Assembly: GCA_015146655.1 (NCBI GenBank) | Contig: VKHL01000106.1 | Span: 1 to 64,000 of the forward strand | Source: Ochromonas danica | Taxonomy: Eukaryota > Sar > Chrysophyceae > Chromulinales > Chromulinaceae | Direction: 5' to 3' | DNA: 64,000 bases | Shown: positions 20,976-58,190 of the stretch, piece after piece | Layout of the letters: each line of letters opens with the position of its first letter | Numbering within the stretch: the first letter of the stretch is position 1 | Notes under the pieces: model-generated | The model's input: the letters and a program-made list of their open reading frames with translations, nothing else | What the model was told of the DNA's origin: nothing | Databases searched by the model: none | Translations under genes and position numbers: made by a program

Positions 20976-21414
20976 ACTACAGTAAACTATTAGACTATTA
21001 GCATTAGCTATCATATCGACTGGTGTAGTCAAGGTGTACTTTATTGATGCACTCATTCAAGAGTGTTTGGAACGATGCAAAACCCACTTCTACAACAATC
21101 AAACATGACAATGAAGTTACTTTGCTCAGCTTAATCATATATTAACCACACCTATGATCTCAACGTTCCTTTTAAAAGAAATTATGAAATACCTTAATTT
21201 TCTCCCAGGCGACAAGTTAATGGCTGGTTGAATTATGAAATACCTTACCTCCTCTTGAGTGTGTGTGGGCCTCCTTGAGGGGGCAGCAGCAGTGCATGAC
21301 AAAGACATCTAGAGCAGGCATTGATTAGTCTAGACGACTTGGGATTGCTTCTTCTTGGTCTTGCTTGTTGTTCTACTTCTCTCACCTTGATACTACTGGG
21401 AAGTCATTGCAAAC
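20976..21414. other. Intergenic with a spaced direct repeat
   Basis: 439 bp. The 16-mer ATTATGAAATACCTTA occurs at 21181-21196 and again at 21232-21247, 51 bp apart. Nothing coding is seen. Confidence 0.55.
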
Positions 21415-29426: not shown

Positions 29427-30604
29427 TTAGAAGTCTTCATCGAAGGCCAACTTATTCTGTTCTGCTGAAACTCCAACTCCACTCTTCGCGTATTCAGACA
29501 CTCTTTTCTCGAAGAAGTTCGTCTTGCCTTGCAGAGAAATCATGTCCATCCAATCGAAAGGATTGGCGGACAGGTAATGCTTGGGGCAACCGAGAGCCAC
29601 AAGTAGTCGATCAGCACAAAATTCAATGTATCTCGCCATGAGAGAGGAGTTCATGCCAATGAGCTCCACTGGCAGAGCATCTCGCAAGAACTCGCATTCA
29701 ATCGAGACGGCATCACAGATGATCTCAAGAATACGAGCTTGAGGAAGCTTATTCACCAACTTGGAGTAGATCAAGCAGGCAAAGTCGCAATGAAGACCTT
29801 CATCACGAGAGATAAACTCATTTGAAGAGCAAAGACCAGGCATCATTCCTCTCTTTTTCAACCAGAAAATAGCACAGAAAGAGCCAGAGAAGAAGATTCC
29901 CTCAACCGCAGCAAAAGCAACAATACGCTCTGCGAAAGAACTAAAGTCGCGATTGCACCACCTGAGGGCCCAATTGGCCTTCTTGCGAACACAAGGAACA
30001 GTCTCGATGGCATTCAGCAGACGATCCTTCTCAGAGGGGTCTTTTACATAAGTGTCGATGAGCAGAGAATACATTTCAGAATGGATATTCTCAATAGCAA
30101 TTTGAAAGCCATAAAAGCAACGAGCCTCAGCACATTGAACCTCACTACAAAAGTTCATAGCAAGATTCTCGTTAACGATGCCATCAGATGCAGCGAAGAA
30201 TGCCAAGACATGAGTAATAAAGTGGCGCTCATTGTCAGAAAGCTTTTCCCAGTATTTCTTATCATCATTTAAGTCAATCTCTTCAACTGTCCAAAAGGAA
30301 GCTTCTGATTTCTTGTACATTTGCCAGATCTGCCAATTCAAATTTGAATTAGCAGGGGGAGATGAGAGTCAGTAGTTCAAAGACTTACATCAGGTTGCTT
30401 GATAGGGAAAAGCACAAAGCGAGACTTGTCTTCAAGGAGAATAGGCTCAGGAAGAAGCTCTCCATTGAGTTCTTTCATCTTAAAATCGGATGGATGGCTC
30501 ATGTCATTCAAAGCAGGTAATTCACGATTAATCAAATTCTTCACAAAATCAACTTCAGGAAAAGACTCCAAAGAAGTGTCACTACTTTCTCTTTCCATCT
30601 TCAT
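29427..30604 (-). CDS. RNR2: Ribonucleoside-diphosphate reductase small subunit (class I R2)
   Basis: Makes deoxyribonucleotides with the R1 subunit, using a di-iron tyrosyl radical. Two exons, 30389-30604 and 29427-30329, intron 59 nt; 372 residues. The ATG at 30604 is used, since the frame before it has only TTG. Iron ligands are in place: Asp in '[11 protein letters not shown]', Glu and His in '[20 protein letters not shown]' (the Tyr there is the radical site), Glu in '[10 protein letters not shown]' and Glu/His in '[13 protein letters not shown]'. The R1-binding tail is 'AFDEDF' (FTLDADF in mouse). Sequence is very close to animal and plant R2. No targeting leader, so cytosolic. Confidence 0.98.
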
Positions 30605-36304: not shown

Positions 36305-39300
36305 ATGGATCTTCTGTCTGAGTCAAGAATCTTTCCATCTGATCATCAACAACAACTGGAAAACCAATTTCGACAGCGTGCAACAGAAGCTTATCATGCA
36401 GGACAACTAAAGATTGCCTTAGTCTATCTTCGTAAACTAACTCAATGGGATATCTCTACTATTGAAATCTTAATTCAAAGTGCTTATCGATTATGGCAAG
36501 ATAGTTACGGAAAAGCTGATGTAGACGAGAGGGAATTGGAAGAAACAATTCAATCAGCTTTTACCTTGTTACTCAATGGCAGTGTTCCCTATGAACTCCT
36601 TCAACCTAAAGACTATCTCATGCTGACTCATATCTATTGCTGCCAAGGAAATCTCATCAGTGCCTTCCAAATCTTGTCACTGGCCACAGCACGCGGGCAC
36701 ATGGAAAGCGCGGCTATTATCATACAAATGTGGGCTGTTTTAACTCGGCTGAACCGAGAAAAGGATGCGAATGATTGCATGATGTTCTTGTTGTCGTCCA
36801 TTACCATTGTATCCTCCAAACTAGGAGCTGTGAAGTCAGAGGATGAGAAAGACAGCATCCCCATGCTCGAGAATTGTGGCATTCCGTTTTACTTCGCCTA
36901 TCTGCATGTTATCAATTACCTTATGAACCAAACGATTGAAATGCCGAAAACGTCTCCCAAGAGGCTGGAAAAGATGAAAGAAATCCATGCATTACTCGCT
37001 GAGTGTTACTTCCTGGCCACAGGCGACAAAAAGGAGAAGCTGGTGGAGCTGATAGCATGGTTCAATGATTACAATTTGTGGATGGATGTGGGTAGTAGAT
37101 GTGAGGGTACAACTTTCTTTCTTCTTGGTGAAGATTCGTATTGGGAGGCATTTCGTCGAAGACCCTTAGACAACATTTCTTTGCAGGCCTTGGTAAAGAG
37201 CATGGTGACCTTTCATCGTGAAGAAGATGTACCACGATTGCTTACCAAGGCTATCACCCTAAACCCTTGGAATATCTATTGTCGTGAAGCACTTCTCCAC
37301 TATGAAGGTAAAATGGTGAAAGTTGCTCATGAACGGCGCTGGAAACTGTTGTTTGAGGCCGAGGAACGAGAACTATGTCGTATCCAGGCACTTATTCGTG
37401 GTCATCAACAGCGTGGCCGTTGGCCAATCATGCAGGAAGAACTTATTGTAATTAAAGAGCATTTCTTTCGGAAGATGGCGTTGGCTGATCGTTATTACGA
37501 GAAGTTCTGGTTACAATATATTTCACAACTTATTGATCGTTGGTTGATATATAACCAAGAACTAAGAGAACTCAAGTATATTTCCGCAACAAAAATCCAA
37601 ACATGGATGAGGAAGATATTGGCAGTGATGAAGTTCAGAAAGTACAAGCGTCGTGTGGCATCTGCTAATGGCCTTTTTTTGACATTAGTTAATAACAAAC
37701 GAAATCGGCGTTGCTTACAAGCTCTTCACCAATGGCATGACTATTATCGTCTCTGTGTAAAGCGACGTGCTGCAACGATACTTTCTGACGTCATCTGGCT
37801 ACATGGATATAATCAATACCTCGTCCGTGGCATGAATGAGCTGTTGAAAGGTCTGAGAGTGCATAATAAGCACGTGAAGAAAAGAGCCATGGCTTTCTGG
37901 GTGCAGAGGTACAAAGATCGACAAGTCAAGCACGCCACTGTGACCATTCGTTTCTTTATTCGTGGAATTTATCAACGTAAAGCTGATCAACAAGCTGAGG
38001 AAGAGTTAGTAGAAGTTGAACAGATGATTGTAGAGAAACAAACAGTCGCCTTCCAATCTAAATATCTGACCATTTTGAGAGAGATGTGGTCACGATGGAG
38101 GAAGAAATATCTTATGATTGCTGCTGAGAGAAAGGTACAAAGGATGATTGTTGTCATCCAGCATGCATTCTATCGTAAAAAGGCAGTAAGTTTGTTCCGA
38201 CAAAGAAGAGTTCGTTTGGAATGTCAACAAGCCTATGCTGCTCGTTATACTTATTTGTGGAAAGAGCGTGTTTTTAAAATTTGGCGATGTCATCAATCTT
38301 CTCGTGTGATACAAAGAGCTGTACGTTGTTATCAAGCAAGAAGAAGACTTAAGCGGTTGCAATTGATTCATGAAGGAGTTGGTAAACAACGCTCTCGCTT
38401 GCACTTCAAAATTAGACAACATTACTTTGGAAGATATCGTAAATTTGTCTATTTGGCACGTAGGGAAAGACTAAGAGCGGTTCTCAAAATAGTAATAGTC
38501 ATGCGAAAACATGCCCAATTGACAAAGTTGCGTGTAGTTTTGAAAAGGAAGATGCGTTATGGTCTATTCGCTCATCAGTTGAATAAAATCCACACAGCTC
38601 ATTCTTTCCGTCAGCTTCGATTTGCTTATCTTTATAGAACGAAGTACCAGTCCCTTTCTATCCTATTTAAAGTCCTGACCAGACTATTACTGAAATGGTC
38701 TTTCAGCAAACTCATCCATCAGACTCTTCGGCAATCGGTAATGAAGAAGCTACGTGATTTGCTCATTAGGCAGCATATTTCGAATAGAATTTATCCAGAT
38801 GCGTATCAAAGTGTCCGTGTTATTGCCAATGATGCAGGTGTAATGCCTCTTCGACATGATCACAAGCAAAATCTGCCAGGCATGACTTCTGACAGTGAAG
38901 AGGCTCTTGCAGTGTGGGAGCAACTCGTTGTGCCCAAGAAACGATTGCTGAGCATTGAAACCTTGCATTATTATAAGGCTTTCGCCTCCTGGATGGCAGT
39001 TTTCCGTTTGGCTCAGCATTATCGACGGGGAAATGCCCTACATATTAGCCGAGGTGTAATGGAAAAGTTGATTTTGCAACTGGGAAGGCGAAGAGAAGCT
39101 GTCGCACGTATTCAACCCTTTTGGCGAGGAACACTAGCTCGCATGAAGTTTTGTTTGATAGTTTCTCAAATGCGTCGAAGGGTTGAGTTCCAATTACGAA
39201 AGCGGTTGGATCGTACGCGAATAGTTCTCCACAGAATGCTTTTGCTTACCTCTACAAGACATGCGAGTAGACAGATATTACAACGAGCAGTGCGTGTGTT

Positions 39301-40775
39301 TCTATCTGGTCGTAGATTGAATCATAGACGGCGAGTCGTCGCTTTTCTTCAAGAGAATGAAAATAAGTTGAATCGATCTGAGATGCAAAAGTATCTGTGT
39401 CGACAATATTTCCAGTTTTGGTATGAGACCCTTTTGCAGGCGGTCTTAGACAAACTATTTGATATTAAATGCGACTTTGATGAATATGCGTCCACTTTTC
39501 AAAGAAGAGTTCGTAAAGGAGGTGAAGATCTTCATCATGATGAAGAAGAGGATAATGATGAAGGCTATTCTTCTAATTTGAAAGCCATTGAAAGGTATCA
39601 CAAACGATTAGACAGACAGAAGAATAAAAGTGCTCTCACAACTACTACTGTTCAATCAACAAAGTCTTCCAAATCTTCACTTCCTTCTCTGGGAAGAAAT
39701 AAGAATCATTTAGGCCCTGCTCCTTCTCTCTTTCCTTCATCTAGTGCGATGTTCTTTCAATCAGATATCTTTCATCGAACTTTTTCTCAAATTCGATCAT
39801 CTCATATTTTCATACTGTCCTCTCAACTTCTTTCTCAATTACCTTTACAAGAGTTACAATATTGTCTCTTTCATAGTGATGTAGTAGTTGTACAAGGGGT
39901 AGAGAAGACGATGCTGAAGATTGTGTGTGAGTGTTTCAGAGGTAAAAAGGTCATATTTAATTATGGAAGAGTTTCGGATAAATCTACTGTAGAATTGATT
40001 ATCGATCTGGCTACTTCCAGGCAATTGCTGGACTCCGTTGTTATTGATCGATCAAAGTGGCCACTCACCTTACCCACTCAACGTGGAGGAGGAAACCAAG
40101 AGCTTGCCATCGAATCCGACGAAGGATTTGCGTTGGTTTTTCAGCATGTTGACATGAATTGGATGAGCTCACTTCGTCTAGCCAGGGCACTCGCTATCTA
40201 CGGCGAAGAGATTGCATTGCAATTAAGACTTCGAAGTTATGCCTCAAATGATCGAGTTGCTCCATCAACAGAGAAACTGTTATCAGAACTGATTCTTGAT
40301 GTTAATAGCTTCGGTTGGACAGGGTTGCTTGTAATCCTACATTCTCTTCGCAGCTATGCTTCCTTGATTAAGCTGACTATTGAGCAGAACAGCGAGCAAG
40401 TGCCTTCCACTTTAAAGGCGGCGCTAACCAGCCTTGCTGGTCATACACAATTAAAGGTAAATCATTTTTAGTCATGCTGTGTGTAACTATCTTCAACATT
40501 TGATGGCTGTTCGTTTGGTGTAGGTTTTGGTCCTCAAGGGTTGGTTTCCCGCCTCAATTTATTGCCATATGTCGGACCTATTGGAAAAAGCAAGTGGTTT
40601 CTCTGCTCTTACTCGCCTGGAGTTGCAAGAAGGCTATCAGCGAGAATCACGTCACGAGGGATTGGACGAAGCTGAACGAGCCGCAGCAATAGATCGAATA
40701 GTGCACTGGGCGAAGATAAGAGCCTATTCCAACTCTGCTATTGGGTTGTCTGTAGTTTCAGACTTCATTCAATAG
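36305..40775 (+). CDS. Large IQ-motif/Sfi1-like repeat protein
   Basis: Two exons, 36305-40456 and 40524-40775 (67-nt intron); 1467 residues. The first ~340 residues are helical and TPR-like ('ATEAYHAGQLKIALVYLRKL'). From ~355 to ~1000 there are at least seven IQ-type calmodulin/centrin-binding helices, for example 'CRIQALIRGHQQRGRW' (~357), 'ATKIQTWMRKILAVMKFRKY' (~428), 'SRVIQRAVRCYQARRRLKRL' (~666) and 'VARIQPFWRGTLARMKF' (~933). Between them are Trp-centred repeats such as 'MAFWVQRYKDR', 'MWSRWRKKY' and 'RVFKIWRCH', like those of centrin-binding Sfi1. The C-terminus is globular with leucine-rich character. A basal-body, flagellar or cytoskeletal role is inferred. No motor domain is present. 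Confidence 0.78.
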
Positions 40776-41095
40776 TAACATACTGTCCTATACTGTCCTA
40801 CCATTGTATTTATGTATAAACGTATTAAGTTCTTCTTCATCGATTAGTATCCTAAACAGTAATGAGGTTGCAATCAGTTTGATATTCCCTAGATTAAGTC
40901 TAAGAAGTCCCGGCAGTCTATACAGTAGGAACCGCAGTCTTTTATACCCATGACTGTAGGGTACTGTAGGGTGCTGTGCTTGTAATGAACAGATGCAGTC
41001 TGGACGTCTGAGTCTGGCACCCTGGCCTTCTGGCCCTGCTGAGGTGTCAGCAGCAGAGTGCCACCCACAGAAACAACAAGACCGCAACCCATGCC
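40776..41095. other. Short intergenic region with small direct repeats
   Basis: 320 bp. CTGTCCTA is repeated at 40783-40800 and GTAGGGT(A/G)CTGT at about 40957-40977. It must hold the EGY-like promoter. Otherwise nothing is seen. Confidence 0.45.
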
Positions 41096-44000
41096 ATGCC
41101 ATCAAAAAAGAAAAGCATGTTGACTTGCCAGCTCTTGCTCTTTCTGCTACTCCTTATCCTAGATGGAAGACTAGCCTTCCATCCTTCTCTTCCTTCTTCT
41201 CCACAACACCAGAGAGTACTACTCTGTCGTGCAGTTTCTCGAGGACTAGTTGTGGGGGTGAGGAGAAAAGAGACAACAGCAGTAGGAAGAAGCAGAAGCA
41301 GCAGATTCTCTCTCTCCACTCTCTATGCCCATCATCATCAGCAACAGCAGGATGTAGAAGAAGATGATAACAGACAAGCAAGTGATAATAGTTCAACAAG
41401 GTTTTCCAATCAGAGCAAGCTGTTAGAGCAAGCCAAGAAGCTTCGTGCTGAAGCAGAGTCCATGGAACGTGCAGGAAAAGAAGAATTGAAACAACAACAG
41501 CACCAGCAAGAAAAGGAAGAAGATGATGGGAGAATAATACCTCCTACTTCTTCTTCCTTTCTAGAAGCTTTTGCATCAAATCGTGATCTCACCAAACTAA
41601 AACAACAATTTGACAAAAATTATAATAAGAAGAATAATATATCAGAGAAGATATATGTTGCAGAAGAAAAGGAACTATTACTTGATTTGAAGGAGATTCT
41701 TTCTTCACGATCAGATAGTAATTCTTCTTCTTTACCATCTCTTGTGGTGACTATCAAGACTGATGATTCCTTACCATCTCTAACAACAACTGCCCCAACC
41801 ACTACGACTACGACACACTTACCTATAGCACCTTCTCCTTCTCCACGGAGAGTTCGTATCAACTATGCGGAAGCTTCAGAGGAGTTATTGAAAGAGTATG
41901 GTCTAGCCAAAATGTTCATTAAAATGGCGGTTAACAATCTGGTACAGAGTGTAGAAGATCCGAAACTTCGACAGATCTACTACTATTGCCTACTGAAGGA
42001 GATATTGAAAGTGTCTGGTTCTGATGATGTTCCTCTAGGGAAGCTTGGAGAAAAGTTTAGTGAAAATGGTGAAGGTTGGCTGGAAGTAGAAAAACATGTT
42101 CAAGAGATTCTCGCTGAAGAGGCAGCCATAGAGGAAGAGGAAGAGGAAGAAGATGATGAGGAAGATAGACAACTTCAACACAGCGTAACTCATTCTATAA
42201 GAAGCTCTGATACTATTGCCAAGAAAGAAGAAACAGTCAGGAGTACTTTAAATGTTGATCTGGCTCTGGAGAATAATGTCAACCTTCTCAACCAATTGGA
42301 AGCAGCTAACAAGGCAGCTGAAAATGGCACTCCTGTGGTAGTGAATAATGTCTCACTCGCAGCACTCAGAGATATTGTCAAGCTTAACACTGTTTTCTTG
42401 GAAAGCTCTCAAGCCATGACAGAGAAAGGAGGAAATATTGAAGAAGCATTGCAAGCCTATCTTAAGGTTTATAACACTAGCATGAACGAGAAGCAGAACG
42501 AGATCAACAACAGCATGGAGGTTCTAAAGAAGAAGGATGATAACAACAAGGATGCTAAAGTCAACAATAATGATAACAAGGACAAAGATGCTAAACAACC
42601 ATTCCTACTGTTTGATCGTAGTGCGAATACTCCAGATTGGGTGAATGTTTCCTCTGCATCAGAAGAATTTCTTCGTTTAGCATTTCCTTCAGAAAGTCGA
42701 CAAAAGGGTGAAGAAATTACTCGTAAAGGAGCTGGTCTATTACAAGCTGTCTTATTGAAGGATTTGTTTACAACCTATTCTGTACGTCGTTTTGATGGTG
42801 CTGTCATATTTAATGGAGAAATGAATCGAGGATATACACCTGAAACCTTACAAGCGAATATTACAGAACGTTTAAAACAATACAATCTAACTGAAGCATT
42901 AGATTTTTCAATCTTAGAAGATGATGTCTATCCACCATCGGATAGTATGGATCTAGAAACTATCATGACGTATGTTGTAGAAGATCCCACCACAGCCGTC
43001 GTTCTCTATCCAGCTAGTTGGACACCCAGGGCGAATATGGTTTATGATCAACCTAATAAGATGATACGTTCTTTTCTAACCGCATTTGCTTTTGGAACTT
43101 CTGTTAGCTTTGCTATCAGTTGTAGTAATATTATCACCCCACAAGGTCTTCGATTAGATGACCTATGGACATCATTTTTCCCACTCTTATTTGGTATCTC
43201 AGGTATTAACTTCTTAACTGAGATAGTTGAACTTACAGTCGCTTCTATGAAATCCGTTAAATTGGATATTACTCGTGTACCTTCTCTAAATCTCTTTAAC
43301 TTTGGTACAAGAAGTGTCTTAACTACTTTAGCACGTGATCGTAAGGATATCTTTGACTTAGCCTGGTTTTCCTGGTCAACAGGTACAGTCACTTCCTTCA
43401 TCGCTGTGCTATTGGGTATTTACTTTACCAAGACAGCAAGTCCTGAGATGGTGCAAAGCTTTCCAACGATTCCTTCTTCGATCTTCGAGTTAAATACAAT
43501 TATACGCCAACTCTTTAATGGATTAATGCCCAATGTATTGGCAGTCTCCGAAGCGGGCAAAGCAGAAACAAATGTTCATCTTCATTGGTTAGCAATTGTA
43601 GGGATGAGTGGATTCATATCACAAGTCTTCCAGTTACTTCCTCTTGATTCCAGTGCAGGAAGTAAGATGACTTTAGGAGCTCTAGGTGCTCAACTACATC
43701 GTATATCCAGGGGGTTGATGAATCTAACCAAGATCATCTTCATGGTAGCGGTCTTGTTGAATATCAAGGCCATTACCTCCATTCCTCAGACATTTGATAT
43801 AGAAGCTGTTACAATTGATTTCTTTCTCTTTTCTCAGCTTTGTGGATTAGAGTTGGTAAGATGATCTATCTTTCTGTTTCATATGATGATGTTGATGCCT
43901 TGTTGTTGATGATTGTTAGGACTTGCCTGTAAGAAATGCTATGACACCCATCGGAGATCTACGCATGGTGGCTTATTTTGCAGCTGTGTCGATTTTGGTT

Positions 44001-44102
44001 ATTTCCTTCGTCCCCGTGGACAATATCAATCAGCACAGCTTGCAATCTGCATATGATTCAGCGGCGTCTTTCTTCTCCAGCTTCCAACACTATCTACCTT
44101 AG
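41096..44102 (+). CDS. EGY-type plastid site-2-protease homologue lacking HExxH (EGY3-like)
   Basis: Two exons, 41096-43855 and 43920-44102 (64-nt intron); 980 residues. The leader is a signal peptide ending 'DGRLAF' then 'HPSLPSSPQ', a bipartite plastid leader. A ~550-residue Gln/Glu/Asn-rich and coiled-coil region follows. The C-terminal ~330 residues follow M50 proteases of the EGY family, with about seven membrane helices. The active-site helix 'LLFGISGINFLTEIVELTVA' has TEIVE where EGY1/2 have HExGH. The second motif 'FQLLPLDSSAGSKMTLGALG' replaces NxxPxxxxDGGR. 'FDLAWFSWSTGTVTSFIAVL' and 'VHLHWLAIVGMSGFI' keep the family framework. It is thus a thylakoid or envelope pseudoprotease, like plant EGY3. 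Its leader is shared with the gene at 56453-58190. Confidence 0.8.
41154..41535 (+). repeat. 382-bp leader block, inverted copy at 57760-58141
   Basis: These 382 bases equal the reverse complement of 57760-58141 with one substitution that I can see (Glu codon GAA here, Asp codon GAT there) and no gaps. It covers codons 20-147 of the EGY-like gene, from the end of the signal peptide through the plastid transit region and a Gln-rich helix. Identity stops abruptly at both ends inside coding sequence, with no repeat or target-site signature at the edges. Confidence 0.95.
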
Positions 44103-44313
44103 ACCCTCTTTTTCTTTTTAACACATGTAATTATGATATAGTCCAGAGGTTGTTGATGCTATTCATGGTGTTTTATTGTCGTACAGTAGATGTGCAGAGC
44201 AGTGGCAAAGGGTTTTCAAGGACAGGAGGACGGAGGATGAAGTTATCATCATTACCATTAAGACGTGACTACAACACAATATGGTGGTCAAATAGAGGAA
44301 CGGGTCTGTCTGT

Positions 44314-46400
44314 TTAGGTGGCCTTTGGAGTTGTCCATCCGGCAGCCACGGGGCCTTGATCATAAATGATCTCACGATGGCAAGACCATACAAGCTGGAT
44401 AGCTTCAGGTGTACCAATACCAGCAGCTCTAATCACAACAGCACATGAGAACAGCACGGATTACAACAAACGAATTTCACCATAACATACCTGGGATCAC
44501 CAGCAGGTCCGAACCAATGGTTCTGAGGAGCACCTGTCGTGCGGGCACGAATACCACTATAGGTCGTACCATTCACCGTGTTGCTCAAGACATAGTTCTG
44601 GAACTGAATGTCTCTTGAAACAACTGCAGCTGTGAGATGTGCTTCAGTGCGTTCCAAAGCCTCCAATACTTGGTCTAACTCTCCATCTTTGTATTCCACA
44701 ACAATCTACAAGTATAAAGAAAAATAAGATGCTCACTTTATATTGGCAGGGATAATAGCTAGTTTGCATACCTGGAAAGGTCCAAAGATCTCAGTGGTGC
44801 ACAAGGCGTAATGCTCCTTCTTAAGCAACTCCTTCAGGGGAATCTATCATATCAACGAGATGGAATTACTTCTAAAACAATGGTAACATAGCGGTGTGTT
44901 TCAAGGAATAACCTTAATGGCGGTTGGTTTCCAAGAGCCATAGCAATCAGGGATCTTGTGATTAGTCTGTAAGTCACCACCGAACAGTAACTCAGCTCCA
45001 GGAACCTTCAACAAAGCATCGACGTGAGCAAGGAATCTAACCATCAGAAACAAAAGGCAGTGGGTTAACAAGCAATTGAAAGCATATCTAGAAGAGACAC
45101 AAAGTCAACCTGCTGTTGGGCACAGTGAGGACAGGCCCCAAAGTGAGATCATCCAACTTCCTTCTCTCTGCCAACTTCTGAATACGACCTAACAATCCAG
45201 CTTTAACCCAATTAGCATGGACAAACAGCGCTGATTGAGCAGAGCACTTTTGTCCTGAATATGCGTAAGCATCTTGATCACAGACCCAAGCCACATAATC
45301 GATATCATGGACATCTGGACCCAAGACCTAACCAACACAACAATCGCCTTCACCATTTGATTGAGAGAAATGAAAGAGAAAGTAATACGTACCTTCCAAT
45401 CCCATCCAGCATCTTCTAACTTAACCTTTCCATTGAGTTCCTTCGCTAAGAACTCTCCCACTTTAGAGGAGCCAGTGAACTGAGTGACACGAGGCTTGGC
45501 TTGAAGAAGCAGCTTGTGCATGACAGGTCCATCACAATTGATGAAGTCCACATCTCTAGCTGGCAAGCCGCAGTGAATAAGCATGCGTAATGTCTGCTCT
45601 AATACAACAGACACCCTGGAATCTCCTTTGATCAAGACTTTGTTACCCATGAACAAAGCACCCATCAATTGTAAGATTGGAATCTCAATAGGAAAGTTGA
45701 AAGGAGCAATAATGGCAATATTGCCATATGGCCATCGATAACCAGATGACAGTTGACCTCCATGATCACCGGGTACTTGGAAACCTTGTGCTAAAAAGCG
45801 TACATTATCACCACTAAAATTCTGGAAGAATCTTTCTGTAACATGTAATTCTGCTTTAGCTTGATCGTAACTTTTGGGAGCAACACGTTGGATGAGTTTA
45901 ATAAAGAATTCACGAACATCTTCTTTACGTAACATAGCAGCTGCTTCCGCACAGACAGTACCATAGTGTAAGTAACGTTCAGGATGCTTGAAAGGATTGT
46001 GTAATCCGGACTTAGGCACGGCATGCGCATTTTCAACAAAAGGACGAAGATCACTTTCCTTCGAATCAGACACTTTCATGAAAATATCGCCATTTAAAGG
46101 GTCAGGTAAATTCAAGAGATGATCGGCAGTCTTCCACTCTCCAGACACTATTCCATTTCATGTCCATTTCCAAAACACATAATCGCCCGGTAAATTCCAG
46201 ACAATCACAAAGCAAATGATGTAAAGAGACTTACCAAGATTCTGAACCACATGAACATGTTTACCAGAGAGTTTGAAAGGATCAACAGTAGCAAAAGCTT
46301 CTACATTAGAATGTTTCATTTGAATACGTGTTTTCAAGAATTGATTCTTTATCAATGATGATGTCTTTGGTAGTCGTTGTACTAAATTAGTCGTCAACAT
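44314..46400 (-). CDS. ALDH12A1: Delta-1-pyrroline-5-carboxylate dehydrogenase (ALDH12 family)
   Basis: Oxidises P5C to glutamate with NAD+, the last step of proline breakdown in mitochondria. Seven exons: 46235-46400, 45393-46147, 45110-45327, 44913-45036, 44772-44843, 44491-44705 and 44314-44428. All have GT-AG borders and keep frame. Total 554 residues; the plant enzyme has about 556. The N-terminus is rich in Leu, Arg, Lys and Ser without acids, like a mitochondrial presequence. 'YGNIAIIAPFNFPIEIPILQ', 'FTGSSKVGEFLAKEL', 'KLEDAGWDWKVLGPDV' (catalytic Glu) and 'YSGQKCSAQSALFVH' (catalytic Cys) are family hallmarks. This is the most intron-rich gene in the window. Confidence 0.97.
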
Positions 46401-46899
46401 ATCTGATATGGAATTATAATAGCTTCAAGAGTGGATCTAGTAGAAGACAGTGGTGGTAAGGTGGTAACAAAGTAGTGTTAGTAGTTGGCAATAGTCTAAT
46501 AGCTATCTTAGACTAGTCTATCTGTTGCTGTTGTTCTTATTGTTTTGTTGTCCTGCGAACAGTTCTGCTTGAGGTTGCCAGCCAGGATTCTTGCCCTCTA
46601 AACCTCAACAAAACAGAGTTAAAAGTCCACTTCTTGGATGAACTTTAAGTGTTCAACATCCGACATCTTCTGCCTTGTTGCCTTTGATTCACTACATGTA
46701 CTTGTAGAACGGAAGTTGAGTTGTCATCATTTGTTTGATTTGTTACATTACAAACTAACCCTAAAATAGAAATATTAAAACTTTAACCTCAATAGATATA
46801 ATAAGTCTAAATAACGATCTTGGCGTAGGTGAATCATGGAGGATAATTGGGATAGTTGTGGTGATACTACTGTAAATACCGAGTTACGTCATGGCAGAC
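46401..46899. other. Spacer carrying the left edge of the duplicated unit
   Basis: 499 bp. Similarity to the second duplication unit begins near 46722 (TGTCATCATTTGTTTGATTT), in the 3' flank of the Cys-rich gene. Nothing coding. Confidence 0.5.
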
Positions 46900-48087
46900 T
46901 TAAACCATGTTGGGATCTTTCACGGGAGGAGCAGAAGCATTAGCGGTCAAAACTGTCCCCTCCGCATAAACATATGTTGGCTGAGCTGGTGCAGCCTCGG
47001 CGTATTGAACAGAAGAGTGGGGGGCGACTTCTTGAGCTGGTTGCTGAATGTAGACCACTTGGGCAGGTTGAGGGGTTTGAACGATATTATGAACTACAAT
47101 TGTTTGAGCAGGAGGAGGTGGCACTGGAGCATTGGCGCCGCGGCCAGTGAGCTGACCCACGGATAAGCAGCATGCCATTTTGCACTCTCCTTGAACGCAA
47201 CAGACACAGAAAGGCAAACAAGTATACATGCAAGGTACCTCTTCATCACAAGGAAAGGCACAGCGACGATCAAGACAGAAGTTTTGATCCATGCATTTGA
47301 TACAGGTTGTTGGCGTGGAATAACAAACCGCGTTAGATTTGGCCAATAAGCAGCACGAGCGCTGCTTCTCTCTCTCTTTATCCCAACACAAGGGCTTCAT
47401 GTAAATAGCAGTATTCTTAACGCATAGACACTGCTGACGCTGTACGCAACCAATACAAGCAGGGAAGCTGCAGAAGCAGGAGTCGATGGTGCAGCAAGTG
47501 GCACTGTGAATGTCCAGAAACACATTATCAGTGAGATCGAAAATATACCAAGATAGGATGCAAAGGAAACTCACTTGCAAGGGACGGCGTCGTACACATT
47601 AGAGAGACCCTCCTTGGACTCTACATTACGCAACATCTCCCCAGGCTGGAGCATGGACTCATCCAATGGGCAACCACATACCCATTCAAAGCAGAAGCAT
47701 TGGCGATATAGTTTACATCTGCATTCCGGATTGGTCAAATCTGAAACACCAGATCCCAATAAAAAGCAGACGTTCTGTTCGTTGTTGGCAGGTGTGCACT
47801 TGCAACTATAGTATTCATCCTCAATGCACAAGAACTGAGTGGCTCCTTTGCAACCAAAGCAATGTGGCCAATCCAGATAGTCACAGCGGAAGGCACAGTA
47901 AATGGGATCCAAACTAAATCATACCAATTTGGTGATATGGTCTTAGTGGATGCAGTATTTTCAGAAGAAGAAAATAAAAATATTCTTACCGGATAAAATT
48001 TGGTGGAAGACCAGGGTTTACAACTGGCGTAGCAGGTTGATTCTCTACGATAATGGTAGTGGTAGTAGTGGTAGTAGTAGTGTCCAT
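46900..48087 (-). CDS. Cys-rich protein A
   Basis: Three exons: 47990-48087, 47575-47913 and 46900-47503; 346 residues. I do not recognise a named family. A Thr-rich start ('MDTTTTTTTTTIIVENQP') is followed by ~210 residues with over 40 Cys. This part seems internally duplicated: 'HCFGCKGATQFLCIEDEYYS' aligns with 'ACIGCVQRQQCLCVKNTAIY', then 'VCFLLGSGV' with 'SCCLLAKSN', 'LYRQCFCFEWVCGCPLDES' with 'MDQNFCLDRRCAFPCDEEV'. It then has 'PCMYTCLPFCVCCVQGECK'. The last ~90 residues are Pro/Gln/Val-rich ('VVYIQQPAQEVAPHSSVQYA'). No signal peptide or membrane segment. Metal binding or disulphide stacking is a guess. Copy B lies next door. Confidence 0.82.
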
Positions 48088-48791
48088 GATTTGACGAGGA
48101 AATCCAAATGATCGAAAGCGGTTGGATTGTGGTGCTGGGGTATCTTGGATATTAAAACGCGTTGTTCAAAATTTTAATGAATAAACAGGTTTCCATTTCC
48201 CTGTCATTTTCGTTTTGTTTCGTCGCCTTGTTGACATGAAACAGAAATAGTAATAAATTGTATAGATGGCTGTTAACTAGAATGTCCATGACGAACAAAT
48301 TAAATGGAGAAGAAAGAGTTCACCAAGCTGAAGTTCAAGCAATTTGAGATTGCTCAAATTTGTACTTTGTTGATTTAAACCACCGATCGCACAGACTTAG
48401 CCCTGGCGAAGAAACTTCGAGCAGAATTCTGTCGTCTCTTGTTTAGTACTGAATTGAAAGATTGACAACGTTCTATTAGTGGGATAAATAATGATAGATA
48501 ATAAACGCAGCAAGTCTCATCGATCACCAGTTAACGTAACTAAGAGGTGTGTGTTTCTTGAGGTTGATAACCAGGATTTACAAGTCAGACTCACTTCCCT
48601 CAAGAACATTCTTTGAAGTGTCATCATTTATTTGATTTGTTACAGTATCAACTAATCCTAAGATAGAAAGTTCAAAACTTAACCTCAATAGATAATATTC
48701 TAAATAATGTAGCTCTAGGCTTAAGACATGGAGGATGATTGGGATAGTTGCGATGGTACTACTGTAAATACCGATTTACGTCATGGTCAGT
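48088..48791. other. Spacer at the duplication junction
   Basis: 704 bp: the 5' flank of Cys-rich gene A, a decayed exon (48288-48506), then about 110 bp of unduplicated junction DNA before unit B starts near 48619. Confidence 0.6.
48288..48506 (+). pseudogene. Decayed copy of first exon of the receiver-TPR-CNB gene
   Basis: It matches 50530-50745 closely at DNA level, for example around 48320-48350 and the run GTCGTCTCTTGTTTAGTACT. It has lost the frame near its start, contains in-frame stops such as a TGA replacing TGT within 'KDCQR', and has no downstream exons. It is the truncated end of duplication unit A. Confidence 0.9.
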
Positions 48792-50297
48792 TTAAACCAT
48801 GTTGGGATCTTTCACAGGAGGAGCAGGAGCATTACTGTTCAAAACCGCACTCTGCGCATATGCATATGTTGGTTGACCTGGTGTAGCCATAACGTACTGA
48901 ACAGGTTGAGGTGCAGCTTGAGGTGGTTGCTGAACGTAGACCATTTGCACAGGAGGAGGGGAAGGTGCGACGTTGTGAACAGCCATTGTTTGGTCAGTAG
49001 GAGTTGGTGGCACTGAAGCATTGTCGCCGCGTTGACCTGGTGTACCCATAACGTACTGAACAGGCTGAGGTGCACCTTGAGGTGGTTGCTGAACGTAGAC
49101 CATTTGCACAGAAGGAGGATGGGAATGTACGACGTTGTGAACAGCCATTGTTTCATCCGTAGGAGCTGGTGGCACTGGAGCATTGGCTCCGCGTTGACCT
49201 GGTGCAGTCATAACGTACTGAACCGGTTGAGGTGCTCCTTGAGGTGGCTGCTGAACATAGACCACTTGCACTTCTTTGCCATGAAGAGGGGGATGAGTGA
49301 TGTTGTGAACAGCCATTGTTTCTTCAGTAAGAGGTGGTGGCACTGGAGCCTTGGCACCGCGGCCAGTGAGCTGACCCACGGACATGCAGCACGACATCTT
49401 GCACTCTCCTTGAACACAACAGACACAGAAGGGCAAACAAGTACACAAGCAAGGTACCTCTTCATCACAAGGAATGGCACAGCGGCGATCAATACAGAAG
49501 GTTTGATCCATGCATTTGATACAGGTTGTTGGCTTGGAAAAACAAACCGCCTTTGATTTTCCCAACAAGCAGCACGAGCGCGGGTTTTCTCTTTCTTTCT
49601 CCCAACACAAGGGCTTCATGTAAATAGCTGCGATATCAACACATAGACACTGTTGACGCCGCACACAGCCACAACAGGCAGGGAAGCTGCAGAAGCAGGA
49701 GTCGAAGAAGCAGCAAGCGGCACTGTGAATATTCAGAAATACATATCAGATGAACTCAAAAGAAAACCAAAACGACAGGACACTCACTTGCAAGGGACGG
49801 CGTCGTACACATTGGAGAGACCCTCCTTGGACTCTACATTACGCAACATGTCTCCAGGCTGGAGCATGGACTCATCCAATGGAAAGCCACAAACCAATTC
49901 AACGCAGAAGCATTGGCGATATAGTTTACATCTCAATTCTGGCTGGGTCAAATCTGAAACGCCAGATGCCAATAAAAAGCAGACGTTCTGTTCGTTGTTG
50001 GGAGGAGGGCATTTGCAAATATAGTGTTCATCCTCAACGCACAAGAACTGAGTGGCTCCTTTGCAACCAAAGCAATGTGGCCAATCCAGATAGTCACAAC
50101 GATAGGCACAGTGAATGGAATCTAGGCTAAATCATAACAATTTCTGTTACTTTGTTCGTATGGGATGCACTTTTTTGAGAAAGAAAATAAGTTCTCTCTT
50201 ACCGGATAAAACTTGAAGGAAGACCAGGGTTTACAACAGGAGTATCAGGTTGATTCTCTACGATAACGGTAGTAGCGGTAGTGGTTGTAGTGTCCAT
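48792..50297 (-). CDS. Cys-rich protein B (with an apparent +1 base)
   Basis: Paralogue of the gene at 46900-48087 with the same three-exon plan: 50203-50297, 49788-50127 and 48792-49722. The Cys framework is nearly identical. Exon 2 has one base more than in copy A, near 50100 (plus strand TAGTCACAACCGATAGGCAC against TAGTCACAGCGGAAGGCAC). Read literally this shifts the frame to an early stop soon after the exon start. Either the copy is newly inactivated, or the base is an assembly error, or splicing differs. Exon 3 stays open for 310 codons with no damage, which favours an error or a very recent event. The C-terminus has three ~54-residue repeats where copy A has one. Without the extra base it would have about 454 residues. 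Confidence 0.72.
48872..49360. repeat. Three in-frame tandem repeats of 159-168 bp
   Basis: Units 48872-49030, 49031-49192 and 49193-49360 lie within exon 3 of Cys-rich gene B. Each encodes ~53-56 residues of the form 'RGANAPVPPAPTDETMAVHN' then 'VYVQQPPQGAPQPVQYVM'. Lengths are multiples of three, so expansion kept the frame. Copy A has one diverged unit. Confidence 0.9.
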
Positions 50298-50529
50298 GGT
50301 TTAACGAGGAAATCCAAAAGGTTTAGAAGCGGATTGTAATGATGATTGTGATTGGATTGTTCTGCTGTATTAGGGGAGGGTAGTTTCTTGGAAAGTAAAA
50401 ACGCGTTGTTGAATAAACGAACAAGCAAGTTTCAGCCGTTTTGTTGTTTTGCAAATGGAGTGGTTATAGTATGAATTGATAATAGATATGGATATAGATG
50501 TTTGAACTATTTCAACAACTAGAATATCC

Positions 50530-53500
50530 ATGAAGAATCAATCAGATTTAGAAGAGTTCACGAAGCTGAAGTTTAAGCAATTGGAGATTGCTCAAAGTTG
50601 TACTTTGTTAATCTACACGCGTGATCGTACAGACTTAGCGCTGGCAAAGAAACTTCGACCAGAATTCCGTCGTCTCTTGTTTAGTACTGAATTGAAAGAT
50701 TGTCAACGATCTATTAGTCGTATAACCAATGATAATAAAGAGGAAGCGCCTGTTGATATTGTAAGTCATCACTCACTGTGACTAACTTGTTGTGATTGTG
50801 TATTAGGTATTAGTTTACATGGCCTGGCTTTGCTTTGGTTTGTATTGAATGGAAGTGTGTTGGTTTACATGGTCTTGCTTGTGTTGACCTTGCTTGTGTT
50901 TGTGTTCAATGGAAGTGATAACGTCAATCATGGTTTGTGTTGTTTTGTTTGTTTTTAGGTTTTGGCTGACTTTGATTTAAGTATTCCCAAGTTTATTGAT
51001 TATATTAATAAACGACCAAGTCAAGCAGAAACTAATCTTTGCCCTTTAATTCCAGTTGTCATCTTAGCTAAAGAGACTTCTATTAAAGATGTTGAAGATC
51101 ATCTCTTACCTTTTGGTGGTGTCAATAAGATATTAGACCCACCATTCAAAAGTCATACAGTCTTTAACGTTCTCTTAGAAGCATTATATAATCGTAATAA
51201 AGTTGAAGAAACGTTCAATTATATCAAGAAAGTACCAACTAAAGCAGCAAAATATCCTTTTCTTTCAATTTTTGAAGCTAAACCACCTTTAAAGAATAAA
51301 GAAACAGAAGAGATTACAAAGAATTCTATTCTTACAGGATCAACTTCATTACATGCTGCTGATCATGTTGTATTAGATGAATTAGATGCTGCATCAGAGA
51401 GTTCTAGTATGTTACCAGATTGTGTCAAAGTTGCACGACGGAAACATCCTGAACTAAACAATCAATATGAATCACCTGAATTAGATGAGATGCAGGACAA
51501 TCTTGGTAATGGATTATCTGGAGGTGTTAAGAGACCTGGCACTCCTCCACCTGCAAGTATTCTTAAGAAACAGTCTAGCTTTGGACGACAACCTTCTCTG
51601 TCAGCATTTCGTCAACGATCTTCGAAGAGGTTTAACTTTGGTGATTTACAACATGTTAATCAAGATGAGGAAGAAGAAGAAAAGGCAAAAGTGGATAAGC
51701 TAGTCTTACCAGATGAACAATGGAATTCTATCAAGTAAGATGAATTGCCTTTCGTGTGTTTGTTTGGTGGATGATAAGGATTGTATCTGATGAATGTTTG
51801 TATCCTCTTATTGTTATGGTTATTGTTATGGTTATTGTTTTTGTTGTTGTTGTGGTGGTTTAGTATGTTAGATTCACAAGAGGCAAGAAGAGGTTCACTA
51901 ATGCTATTCTCAGACGATAGTCTCAGTAATAACAATTCACATGAAGGAATGTCAGTTAGTACTACAATGGATGGAGAAACTCTCAAGAAGAAACTTGCCA
52001 CTATGGGTGTTCAGAATGAAGTTCTTATGGATTCTGTTCATCGTCCAGTATGGAAGGAATCAAAGCAAGCAGGTAGACAATCACTACTACCCATGCCACT
52101 ATCCACTATCGCAATGACTCACCCACATCTGACCTGTGACTATTGTAGAGAGACAACTAAGACGTACAGGAGGGAAAGTGGTTCATGACTTTTCTCATTT
52201 CTTAGAGAAACAACCACCAGCATTGAATAAAGTACGAACTGTCAGTGGTCTAGATCGTAAAGTTTGTCAACAAGCATGGAGAGCAATTAAACGACCTCTC
52301 ACATCCAGTGCTATTGATCTTCGTAGTGGTAAGAAGGTTTACTCCTCACTCACACATGATGTCTTCTTCACTTTGTCTGTTCATCACAATGATTTAATAG
52401 AGAAAAGTGGTTTGCCAAGATTAGACACACTTCGAGTTGTTACTGAAGGCTCAACACCAAAAGGCACACCAAAGAGCTCATCAATGAAAGGTTCATCAGA
52501 AAGGATTATAACACTTCGTAAAGATGATTCCTTTTTATTACAAGTTACTAACAACTCAACAGGTAAAAATACACCAACAAAAGCAATGATGAAAAGTCGT
52601 GCAGATAGTATTCATAGTGGAATATCTGGAGAAGGTGATCATATCTCAATAGTACAAGAAGATGATCGAAGTTGGTTAAAGAAGTCTGGAGGTGGTAGTG
52701 ATTTAAGTTTAAGTTGTTTTTCACAAGATCCAAGAAATACATCAAAATACTATCGACGTATAGCACAAGTTGCTAAACAAAATATTCCTGATTTACAAGT
52801 TAGTGAATTATTAGATATTGATTTTACAAATCAACGTATTAATTTAGGAGAAAAGGATATGTTAGAAAGAGGTCTTAGTTTACAAAAATCAGGTGATATG
52901 GAATCAGCTGCAATCTATTATACACGTGCTGGTGCACATAGTAAAGATCAAGAAATTAGTCGAATGTTATTAGGTAATTTAAATTATAATTTAAAGAGAT
53001 TATTATCAGCTTTGAAATATTATGATCAAGCTATTCATATTATTGAATCCAAACCAATAGGAGTACGTCCTAGACAACATGCTTTCTTAGCTTATTATAA
53101 TCGTGCTATTATCTATTTCCGTCTTGGTGATGATGATGATGGTATTCGTGATATTACAACAGCTTTAGAATATAATAATGAACATTTACAAGCACGAGAG
53201 ATTCTATCACTTGCTAAACGTCGACTTGGTCTATATGGACAAGCAATTGATGAAGCAATTAAACATAAAAATTTGAAAGTTGATTTACATGTTAAAGAGA
53301 TTGAAAAACAAAGAAAAGCATTCGAAGCATCACAAAAGCTTCGTATGGTTAAAGGCAATACTACTAACAACAATAACAATGATCATGATAATAATAACAA
53401 CAACTATGATGATGATGATATAGTTCATCCTATTGGAGAAATTCAACATAGCAGTCATTTACTTCAATCTGCTATTAGTCGACGTGGTGAAAGTATGTTA

Positions 53501-56252
53501 AGTAAAGGTAGTAATAACGGTGGTGGTATTAAGACAATGCAAATTGAAGTACCAGAATCATCATGTCGAAGTTCTTTACGTGATCGTGTAGCAGCACATC
53601 GTGGTAGTAACAATGCCTTTGGTGCTAAAGATAATGATAACAATGATGATGAAGAAAGAGGGAATAGTACAGAATTAGCTGATGGTTATTTGAAATTATT
53701 TAAAATGCAACATAATATTAAATTAGAATTATTTGATGAAATTTTTAATAAACCAAATGATATTCAAAGTTCATTATTAATTGAACCACTGAAACGAAAA
53801 TCATCTGATATTAAAATTATTGCTAATTATTTAGAATTTTTTCCTTTTCTTTATCCTTTAGGAGAAGGTTTATTAGAAGAATTATCACAATGTGTTGAAT
53901 ATCGTGCAATATGTAATCCACAATTAGTGTCACAAAATAATCGTCTATTTGGTCAAAATCAAGATCCTTATGCTGTTTGTCTATTAATGAAAGGTCATAT
54001 TCAAACACGTTTAGATTATAGTACACATCAATCAATGACCAATCTCTTCTTAGATGATTATTATGAAAATGAAGTATTTGGACATATTGATTATCTTTTC
54101 AATATTATGAGTCGTCCTTTAGTGAAAGTGATTGAAGAAACACTTCTATTACATCCAAAACATCGTAAAAATACATCTTCTCTCTTTAATACAGCAAGTA
54201 TTTCTAATCTTGGTTCATCATTATTACCATCTTCTCATGGTGATGGAAATGATAGTCTACCAAGTGATTCTAGTGATGATGATACGGATGTATTATTATC
54301 TAAAGTTGATGATAACAATGAAGCTCATCAAGCTCTACTACAAGAATTACATAGTCTATTAGCCATTGCAGAAGGGAAACAAGGGAATAATGCACAAAAT
54401 GCAATTTCTCCAACTAGCAGACTTCAACGCAATGGTACTGGACTTAGTTCTGCTCCACCTGAATTACCCACTACTATCTCACGTGCTATTCGACCTGGCA
54501 TGTTTGCAACCTATTGTTTAGCTTCACCATGTGAGTTATTAATGTTCTCTAAGAGAGATTATTATTGTCATTTATATGCACCAGCATTAGAAGAATTTCG
54601 ATCGCGTTTAGAAGCGATTAAAGCATGTGGAATATTTTCACGTTGGAGACCAGAAGAAATGATACGACTTGCTCGTATGGGACGTATCTTACATGTTAAA
54701 CGTGGTACAATTATTATTGAACAAGGAGAAAAACCAAAACATTTATTTATTATTATGAAAGGAATGTGTAAAGTGAACAAGAAACCAAATCGTACAGAAA
54801 TGCTTTTACAAAAATTGGAGATTGCAAGAGAAAAAGCACATCAACATGATCTTAAATATCTATTCCATCATAAACCTCTTCATTTAGGTATTGAAAGTTC
54901 TCCTCCAATTCAACGTAAAGCAGAAGAAAATGTTGATTGGGATAGTAAAGACAATAGTGAAGATGAGTTGTTAATAGCAGCAGATAATACAATGACAGCA
55001 ACTCTGTCATCATCATCAAAGCCTTCTAGTCCTAATAAAGGACGAAATCAGAAACCATCAACACCTATGACACAAAAGATACATAAAGGTCAAATTGCTG
55101 GTGGACTAAGCAGATCTCAAAGTGGTTCTGCGCCAAATACTCCGGTATCTAAGAAACATTTGGCTAAACAAGGTGAGCATCATCTTAACTCTCCGATTCA
55201 ATCCAAACCAGCAAGTGCTACTATGACAACTTCGAATACAAACACATCCAAATTGGTAGTGAACGCCGCCTCGACTCTACCACGAGTTGATCACCATCAC
55301 TCATCAGCTACAAGCACAACAACAGCAGCAACAACAACAGCAGCAGGTCCATCCTCAACTGCCAATACTAAACCACCTCTTAACAAGTCCTTAACAAGAT
55401 CTGCTCCTCCTTCTTCTCAAAACAATCATTTTACTTTTCCTAATACAACTCCTTCCACGAAGAAGAAATCTCAAAACAAACTATCACATGAACAAAAGTC
55501 TTCTCATTCTCTTCATGATGTCAAACATTTCCCAACAGTCATTGATTTACCTCCTGCTTCACCAACATCTGCTGAAAAGGAAAGAAGAGAATTACAAATA
55601 GAAATTGAGAAATTAGAAGATCTTATCTCTCAAGCTCGTTTACAAGATGCTTTTGAAAATCACAGACAAAATGGTGGTGGAAGTGCAAGTATTAGTCGAA
55701 TCCATTCTACTGACAATCTTCATGATCGTGTTGTTCAAGGGAATAGACCTTTTACTCGTGCATCTGTTAATATGGATCAACCAGGTGATAAAGAAGCTCG
55801 TGAATTAGCAGTGACGTTAGGTAATATTGATGCAGAGATTGCAACGTTGCAATGGCCTATGATCTTTGGTGAAGCTTGTATTCTTGATCCTGAGCATGGC
55901 TTTAGTCGAGGGTCAGTCGTGGCTGACACTAGTTTAGAACTCTTTGTTCTTCATAAGACACAAATACAAACCTTCCAAATTGATGATGCATTCCTTGACA
56001 GAGTAAAAGGTAAGGAGAATATCTGTCTGTCTGTCATCGTATTGATCTCTTGTATCATCATTTGACTCTGATTCTTCTCTGTGGATGTTCTGTTTAATAG
56101 GAAAAGGTGTTGTTTTCCCAAGCGATCCTGATATTGTTGTCGATCTTTATCATAAGCAACTTTGGGGAGGTTATTGTAAAGATGTCATGAAGGATATTTC
56201 CACGAATAAGTGGCCCAAATCTCTTAAATCCCATGAACCCTTTAGTGTTTAG
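50530..56252 (+). CDS. Receiver-like/TPR/cyclic-nucleotide-binding multidomain protein
   Basis: Five exons: 50530-50760, 50959-51734, 51864-52072, 52149-56009 and 56101-56252; 1742 residues. Residues ~15-135 follow a response-regulator receiver: 'CTLLIYTRD', 'VDIVLADFDLSIPKFIDYI' (Asp at the phospho-acceptor strand), 'IPVVILAKE', 'GGVNKILDPPFKS' (Lys-Pro region). A Ser-rich linker precedes TPR repeats ('GDMESAAIYYTRAGAHSKD', 'AFLAYYNRAIIYFRLGD'). Two cyclic-nucleotide-binding-type folds follow. The first is 'DPYAVCLLMKGHIQTRL', 'NEVFGHIDYL', 'YCLASPCELLMFSKRDYY'. The second is 'GTIIIEQGEKPKHLFIIMKG', then ~340 low-complexity residues, then 'IFGEACILDPEHGFSRGSVV' as phosphate-binding cassette. 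Arg in 'FSRGSVVA' could bind a cyclic nucleotide phosphate. Signalling role inferred. Confidence 0.8.
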
Positions 56253-56452
56253 AGGCTGAAGATTGGATTGTAACAACTATGAGAACTCATACTAATGTTG
56301 TTTTGTATAATATAACCTGTAACTTAGAAAATAGAACACAAAGAAGAAATACATTTAGTACTGACTATTTACACTTCCAATCAACCCATATATCCAAACA
56401 TTCATTCATTCACTCACCATTCCACTCAACTGATGGTAACAAATTGGTAATA

Positions 56453-57180
56453 CTATTTCCCATTGTTATTGTCACGATGATTTTCAATCTCAGCCTTTGC
56501 CTCCAAGAAAATCCCCCTGGATTCTTGAATCTTCGTCACAAAGGCTTTTAACCCTTCTTCCATGATTTCTTCTTCTGTGATTGTTTTCATGGCTAGTAAG
56601 AAGGCAATGTTTGCTTCTATAACAGAAACAAGAAGACTGAGCTCTCGACCAGTCAACAAGGAATTGCTTCCATCGATTGGATATGGAAGAGTGTCGTGCA
56701 AGATTCTCTCATTGATAGCTTTCATTGTTGACAATAATTCAACAGCAGCCCGTCTTCCAGCTTCTCCTTCTAATGGTAGCACGATGCTGGCAACAATTCG
56801 ATCATATTCTTCTTTGATCGAAGTGACCAATCTCTGCATGCGATCATTAACTTTGTCCACAAAGTCAGGGCCCATGTTCCACACGTTATCAACCTTTCTT
56901 AACTCTGCCATCTAACAAACACAATCAGATAACATGCATATGCAATAAGATGAATCAATGGAATGGAATTCATAGTCTAACCTCTGATAGAATGCAGTGA
57001 GTGATGATGATCTTGTCAAATGGATCATCACTTTCACTACACACAGCTTTAATTGCCTTCTCATAACATTCTGCCCCCATGGGATCTTTGAGAAACTTGA
57101 CCTTCCGTCGAAGCTCTTCCACTTCCTTTTCCAATTGCATTTGTTGCTCTTTTGTAACTAACACAACACAATAATTGTCG

Positions 57181-57227
<47 letters not shown>

Positions 57228-58190
57228 TTCATCCTCCTCATCATCATCTTTTATTTCATCTTCCTTTGACTCTCTTTCCATCACTTGACCCTCTTTCGAC
57301 TTCTTGGGTAATTCTTGAGCAATCAGCTTTTCAGCCCGCTGAATGACTCTCTCATCTAGTTCATCCTCTCCATTAGCCAACTTAGCCAATTCAATAGGAC
57401 CTAGCATAGCAATCTTCTTCATCTCTAGTAACATACTATATCGATAAATCTCTTGTTCTCGTGGATCAGTTGTAAAGTCTACAACTCGATCTAAACCAGG
57501 TTTGAAAACAATTTGATAAAGAAGTTTGTTTTCTCCAATAATCTCTTTTTCTAATCCTATACTTGCTTCTGTATAGTTAACAAGGTTTACTTGATTAATG
57601 ATTGTTGGAGTGTTTGTTATGGTCTGTTGGAAAATCTCATTCTTGTCACTGCCCTGTACATTCTCTACCAGTTCTTGTTTCCAATGCATTAGATTGCGTT
57701 TCACTGCAAAAGCATCTACAAAGGAACCAGAACCATTAGATGAAACTCTATGAGTAAGAATTCTCCCATCATCTTCTTCCTTTTCTTGCTGGTGCTGCTG
57801 TTGTTTCAATTCTTCTTTTCCTGCACGATCCATGGACTCTGCTTCAGCACGAAGCTTCTTGGCTTGCTCTAACAGCTTGCTCTGATTGGAAAACCTTGTT
57901 GAACTATTATCACTTGCTTGTCTGTTATCATCTTCTTCTACATCCTGCTGTTGCTGATGATGATGGGCATAGAGAGTGGAGAGAGAGAATCTGCTGCTTC
58001 TGCTTCTTCCTACTGCTGTTGTCTCTTTTCTCCTCACCCCCACAACTAGTCCTCGAGAAACTGCACGACAGAGTAGTACTCTCTGGTGTTGTGGAGAAGA
58101 AGGAAGAGAAGGATGGAAGGCTAGTCTTCCATCTAGGATAAACAATAGTAATAGAAGGAAGAGCCAAAGTGTCCGAAAGGCAGTCAACAT
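56453..58190 (-). CDS. Soluble plastid paralogue of the EGY-like protein's N-terminal region
   Basis: Two exons, 56982-58190 and 56453-56911 (70-nt intron); 555 residues. A signal peptide ('TLWLFLLLLLFILDGRLAF') and transit region are the same as in the EGY-like gene at 41096. Beyond the 382-bp shared block the two proteins are clearly homologous but diverged: 'VNYTEASIGLEKEIIGENKL' against 'INYAEASEELLKEYGLAKMF', and 'DPREQEIYRYSMLLEMKKIA' against 'DPKLRQIYYYCLLKEILKVS'. A run of ~16 Asp from a (TCA)n repeat follows, then coiled-coil helices. It ends without any membrane domain ('MAELRKVDNVWNMGPDF' opens exon 2). I know no function; a stromal partner or regulator of the membrane paralogue is a guess. 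Confidence 0.78.
57181..57227. repeat. (TCA)n trinucleotide repeat encoding poly-Asp
   Basis: About 15 TCA units in frame in the minus-strand gene, read as GAT codons. Likely length-variable. Confidence 0.95.
57760..58141 (-). repeat. 382-bp leader block, inverted copy of 41154-41535
   Basis: Reverse complement of 41154-41535 with one mismatch seen. Here it covers codons 17-144 of the soluble paralogue, so it occupies the same relative place after the signal peptide in both genes. The signal peptide cores just outside the block differ in sequence. Confidence 0.95.

Follow-up and report, generated by a model that had tools for sequence, protein, structure and literature searches.

A near-identical 382-bp patch shared by two old inverted paralogues of Ochromonas danica, probably a recent gene-conversion tract

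The 64,000-nucleotide stretch analysed here, referred to as the window, covers positions 1 to 64,000 of contig VKHL01000106.1 (C106) in the assembly GCA_015146655.1 of the chrysophyte Ochromonas danica, a genome with a GC content of 41%. Two convergent genes in this window, gene A (41096-44102, forward strand) and gene B (58190-56453, reverse strand), share an almost identical block of 382 bp, which starts within what reads as a plastid-targeting leader. The parts of both genes on which the following analysis draws are these:

41096..43855, forward strand: gene A exon 1, an EGY-like membrane protein without the M50 zinc-binding motif
43920..44102, forward strand: gene A exon 2, after an intron at 43856-43919, as in the EukProt model P0001
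41117..41153, forward strand: putative signal-peptide start of gene A with most of its hydrophobic core, located before the block and divergent from its gene B counterpart
41154..41535, forward strand: putative conversion block in gene A (codons 20-147 when read from 41096), with the last part of the predicted signal peptide, an Ala-Phe cleavage motif (RLAF/HPS), a transit-peptide-like stretch and an acidic/Gln-rich linker
41536..42157, forward strand: continuation of gene A beyond the block, homologous to gene B at 57759-57255 but diverged from it (SFLEAFA..., NYAEAS..., DPKLRQIYYYCLLKE...)
56982..58190, reverse strand: gene B exon 1, as read from the sequence
56453..56911, reverse strand: gene B exon 2, after a GT...AG intron at 56981-56912 predicted from the sequence
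58142..58190, reverse strand: putative signal-peptide start of gene B with most of its hydrophobic core, outside the block
57760..58141, reverse strand: putative conversion block in gene B, codons 17-144, matching the reverse complement of 41154-41535 at 380/382 bases

Self-BLAST of the window aligns 41154-41535 with 58141-57760 on the opposite strand, ungapped and with two mismatches, and a base-by-base comparison gave the same result. The original prediction, a reading of the letters alone, had reported this ungapped block with 381 of 382 bases identical; the block stands, but the count was off by one, whereas its codon range, 20-147, is correct if counted in the frame of 922 codons that opens at 41096. 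Both differences fall on third codon positions: A/T at 41467/57828, which gives GAA (Glu) in A and GAT (Asp) in B, and A/G at 41497/57798, which is silent (CAA/CAG). The longest exact run within the block is 313 bp, whereas shuffling the columns of the codon alignment 2,000 times gave runs of 32 at most. When window positions 41100-41700 were searched against the 31.19-Mb genome as DNA, only two places were found, namely, the two loci themselves. This search stretched the match to 405 bp at 97% identity, because the 23 bases upstream of the block still agree at 14 positions.

Outside the block, the two genes are homologous but strongly diverged. Once the block had been removed and runs of acidic residues, Asn and Thr masked, a local alignment of what lies downstream scored 92, the maximum in 1,000 shuffles being 62. 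The codon alignment retains 403 of 840 identical nucleotides downstream and 24 of 39 upstream, the latter from 13 codons only, and the amino acid is kept at 92 of the 280 aligned codons downstream and at 8 of the 13 upstream, which agrees with the scattered identity that had been noticed. More telling is the choice of codon at identical residues, Met and Trp being left out. Inside the block the same codon is used at 123 of 124 such residues, whereas downstream this holds for 45 of 92 (44% is expected from the codon usage of the window) and upstream for 3 of 7. The flanks have therefore diverged to synonymous saturation, and the likeness of the block at third positions goes beyond what selection on protein would preserve, as had also been claimed. 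Judged from these alignments, the gene pair is old and the block appears young.

The position of the block with respect to the leader matters for what may have happened. In both genes a hydrophobic run is followed by LILDGRLAF/HPS, so that, judged by eye, a signal peptide, an Ala-Phe motif and a transit-like stretch are present. We take the Ala-Phe-type motif to be the cleavage site of an ochrophyte-type bipartite plastid-targeting leader; one light-harvesting complex (LHC) gene pair of this genome (L047/L048) carries ASAFAP. Genes A and B would thus share a bipartite plastid-targeting N-terminus. The block leaves outside it the first 12 residues of A (numbered from the alternative Met at 41117, with which gene B aligns) and the first 16 of B, and with them most of the hydrophobic cores, MLTCQLLLFLLL in A and MLTAFRTLWLFLLLLL in B, which differ. 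At its other end it passes the transit-peptide-like part by some 60 codons, as far as can be read from the sequence, and stops just past the acidic linker. Since most of each differing core lies outside the block, both genes would already have had a homologous leader, of which an internal part was overwritten, and the block is therefore no case of a leader given to a leaderless gene.

The products of the two genes differ in architecture. Given the predicted GT-AG intron, gene B encodes 555 amino acids in two exons, and no counterpart of the C-terminal membrane part of gene A was seen in it. That part of gene A aligns with a genuine M50 gene on contig C120 (E = 4.6e-7 in the genome search; 32 of 116 residues identical), whose protein matches PF02163 (Peptidase_M50) at 3.5e-13, and we take gene A's relatives to be the EGY / M50 site-2-protease family of plastids. 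Unlike the C120 protein, gene A has T...E where HDGAH stands, T and E replacing the two His, and LLPLDSSAGSK, aligned by eye, at the place of NSLPIGRLDGGR, with no Asp-Gly motif. Gene A is thus related in sequence to the M50 family but lacks the HExxH and C-terminal Asp zinc motif, and the label of EGY-like pseudoprotease is a fair one. Profile searches were less informative: neither the gene A frame nor P0001 matched Pfam, neither P0001 nor the C120 protein matched NCBIfam, gene B gave Pfam matches below the cut-off only, and gene A against solved structures returned matches at chance level only.

The model P0001, which we took as gene A itself, is the sole gene A model that the protein search returned, and it illustrates how hard this region is to annotate. 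Its start lies at 40993, and 40993-41043 is spliced directly to 41342, which drops most of the gene A leader as a 298-bp intron at 41044-41341 (coordinates read from the sequence). This intron is probably a prediction error, since the open frame, the hydrophobic run and the Ala-Phe motif are all intact across it and the other two introns of the pair measure 64 and 70 bp. If it were right, gene A would not be plastid-targeted.

The same pattern recurs in this genome. Repeats were surveyed in 262,418 of 31,187,593 bases (0.84%), comprising all of C106 and 160 kb of contig C1, of which 2,500 read N. Four pyruvate phosphate dikinase (PPDK) paralogues lie in alternating orientation at C1:28610-42562 (L029-L031), and one inverted pair among them (36611-39257, reverse, and 39987-42562, forward; 3.9 kb apart) has 347 bp in common at 98.8% identity, with an exact core of 317 bp. 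Outside this island BLASTN detected no more than two short matches in the pair, of 25 and 46 bp, and between the other five PPDK pairs it found nothing. Use of the same codon is again concentrated inside, at 109 of 111 identical residues, compared with 22 of 43 downstream (40% expected) and 2 of 5 upstream. In this case the event can be polarised. When compared with the Trypanosoma brucei PPDK (2x0s), the canonical and the diverged copy both match at 56 of 108 residues in the block, but after it the canonical copy keeps 48 of 100 and the diverged copy 29 of 103. Because the diverged copy matches equally in the block and less after it, the canonical copy was probably the donor.

Based on these results, the block is best explained as a recent interlocus gene-conversion tract between old inverted paralogues, to which we assign a probability of about 0.84. 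Genes A and B would be old convergent paralogues with a common bipartite plastid-targeting N-terminus, and some 380 bp of the leader-plus-linker of one gene would have replaced the matching stretch of the other, which had diverged by then, most simply in one single event that overwrote everything from the end of the signal peptide through the cleavage motif and transit-like stretch to the linker. What speaks for this is an in-register island that stands far above homologous flanks on both sides, an excess of identity at silent sites, the second, polarised case and the mosaic inverted repeat on contig C5 described below; recent conversion between inverted paralogues had indeed been one of the two explanations first offered. 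The length is ordinary, as tracts in yeast are reported to average 200-300 bp, one study giving about 500 bp (PMC3924818). It is established that neighbouring paralogues, whether direct or inverted, convert one another over stretches of a few hundred bp (PMC3966223, PMC3924818). For instance, the Caenorhabditis elegans col-12/col-13 and inverted hsp pairs, as summarised in PMC3966223, likewise combine a near-identical tract between neighbours with low flanking similarity. Unlike those pairs, the present one has coding flanks that are saturated too, so that the tract stands out as an island, and its tract cuts a putative plastid-targeting leader. The unusual part is the degree of divergence of the partners. 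Among papers on gene conversion combined with diatom, presequence, ochrophyte or alga/light-harvesting, no such case appeared in the titles or abstract openings, which does not prove its absence.

Several points weigh against this interpretation. First, conversion becomes rarer as paralogues diverge, according to a worm survey (PMC3966223), and the flanks today share only about 50% of their nucleotides. Second, the upstream edge, with its 14 agreeing bases out of 23, is softer than the downstream edge. Third, the evidence comes entirely from assembled sequence. Fourth, protein searches with A, with B and with the EGY-like part of A returned P0001 only or nothing, each of them scoring the 8,000 or so candidates with the most words in common, a number in which poly-Q, poly-E and poly-D words may crowd out relatives; likewise, scans of viral and prokaryotic contigs with gene A as sole query gave no relative. 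Neither a relative nor a second strain turned up, and the comparison of silent sites thus covers the two paralogues within this genome.

The closest competitor is continuous concerted evolution, in which repeated conversion since the duplication kept this interval alike while the flanks escaped. It would account for how conversion could start at all between saturated flanks, for the softer upstream edge of the A/B pair, and for the placement of the mismatches, which lie towards one end of the A/B block and near both ends of the PPDK island. Many events should leave longer graded edges, whereas in both pairs the identity has dropped to background level no more than about 25 bases from the ends, and we consider this scenario unlikely. 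It is in fact a sub-form of conversion that overlaps with the explanation preferred above, and the odds given for the different readings do not sum to one.

An assembly artefact, in which gap filling or consensus calling placed gene A sequence into gene B or the reverse, is less likely still, even though near-identical neighbouring blocks are spots where assemblers may err and the case is made on the assembly. The two copies differ at two sites, both have an open frame and homologous flanks on either side, and flanks of about 50% identity should leave consensus or polishing steps little to confuse. Neither the window nor the rest of C106 contains an N. In addition, the assembly keeps apart the arms of a perfect 1,070-bp inverted repeat with a spacer of only 171 bp on contig C166, which suggests that long reads were used, although such a palindrome could be an artefact itself. 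Finally, the PPDK pair carries another patch of this kind, and there the direction can be read.

It had also been suggested that a ready-made leader was transferred, and that the locus shows how a plastid leader may be copied without an intron. Presequence acquisition by exon shuffling is a known route for plastid leaders in secondary plastids, and our case resembles it in concerning the copying of such leaders. It differs in having no intron at the edges, in being a homologous replacement and in striking a recipient with a leader of its own. The block does cover the cleavage motif and the transit-peptide-like part, as insertion or exon-shuffling-like capture by a leaderless gene would predict, but it starts inside the signal peptide, leaving homologous though diverged starts outside, replaces an internal part, extends beyond the leader, and sits in register and gapless between homologous flanks. 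The reading frames remain open through its edges, so that no intron is needed there. No leaderless recipient was seen, and we regard such a transfer as very improbable. Selection on a DNA, RNA or antisense product that holds all 382 bp identical is hardly credible: the antisense frame is open across the block for 126 codons, but no sign of a gene was found in it, no Rfam family reached its cut-off within the window, the genome search hit two places only, silent sites are near-invariant whatever the codon, and the boundary is sharp within one reading frame.

If gene conversion is accepted, the window offers a clean example between anciently diverged paralogues, with another in a small sample of the genome. 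Conversion islands of this kind may mislead gene trees, and a targeting region may be overwritten independently of the mature protein that it precedes.

Orientation deserves separate consideration. Among exact repeats of at least 40 bp in the sampled 262 kb, with tandem copies (one of 177 bp) and low complexity left out, there are six pairs, three inverted (313, 317 and 242 bp) and three direct (60, 50 and 61 bp), the direct repeats of 50 and 61 bp being parts of one direct 325-bp pair on C1 that is 96% alike. All three exact repeats longer than 100 bp are therefore inverted, which hints at an inverted bias, with n = 6. Moreover, of the 78 best-candidate matches listed for 70 kb of query DNA, two reached at least 95% identity, and both are in cis and inverted, namely, the two blocks. 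On contig C5, inverted arms of 2.5 kb (27000-29500 and 49300-51800; L049/L050), whose facing ends are 19.8 kb apart, are mostly 100% identical but mosaic, with about 200 bp near one end at 62-65% and 96-100% again beyond that.

It is tempting to speculate that neighbouring inverted paralogues of this alga go on swapping pieces of about 320-380 bp although hardly any DNA identity is left in their flanks. This would take place by a template switch to the inverted copy at short patches that are still conserved, and not by the usual homology-dependent conversion; we hold this idea tentatively and judge it doubtful. The assays of template switching employ engineered, highly similar repeats, whereas in our pair identity beyond the block is limited to short patches. 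What the two situations have in common is nearby inverted copies as possible donor and recipient; template switching of this kind, between inverted repeats close to one another where replication forks restart, is the subject of two reports (PMC9701231, PMC6358216). The small numbers and the direct 325-bp pair weigh against it, as does likeness among LHC genes that departs from a strictly local, inverted pattern: genes on different contigs are 95.9% identical over 666 bp (L043/L045), two genes on contig C23, on the same strand and 62 kb apart, are 96.1% identical over 666 bp, and a direct pair on contig C10, 17 kb apart, shares 752 bp at 99.6%. Nor should the inverted bias be generalised, since the worm survey suggests that conversion favours the same orientation, along with its drop with divergence (PMC3966223). 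If template switching were nevertheless the mechanism, inverted gene pairs would continually supply swaps of domains and leaders that stay in frame; and if the inverted bias held genome-wide, the minimum homology for conversion in this alga would become directly testable.

Other repeats and genes were noted along the way. An inverted tRNA-Glu pair lies in 242-bp identical arms on C1 (L040:8473-8799), and each arm of the C166 repeat (18300-21100; L046) carries an LHC match, the genome having 47 such matches in all, as befits a photosynthetic organism. Between genes A and B, direct repeats with about 76-87% identity lie clustered at window positions 46716-50738, together with a repeat-bearing protein (48792-49619, reverse strand) that gave no Pfam match at E 0.01. 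Stretches related to a further gene without a Pfam match, at 7109-9034 of the window, occur on several contigs, C5, C27 and C94 among them, at about 66-89% identity, and four C94 copies have identical scores.

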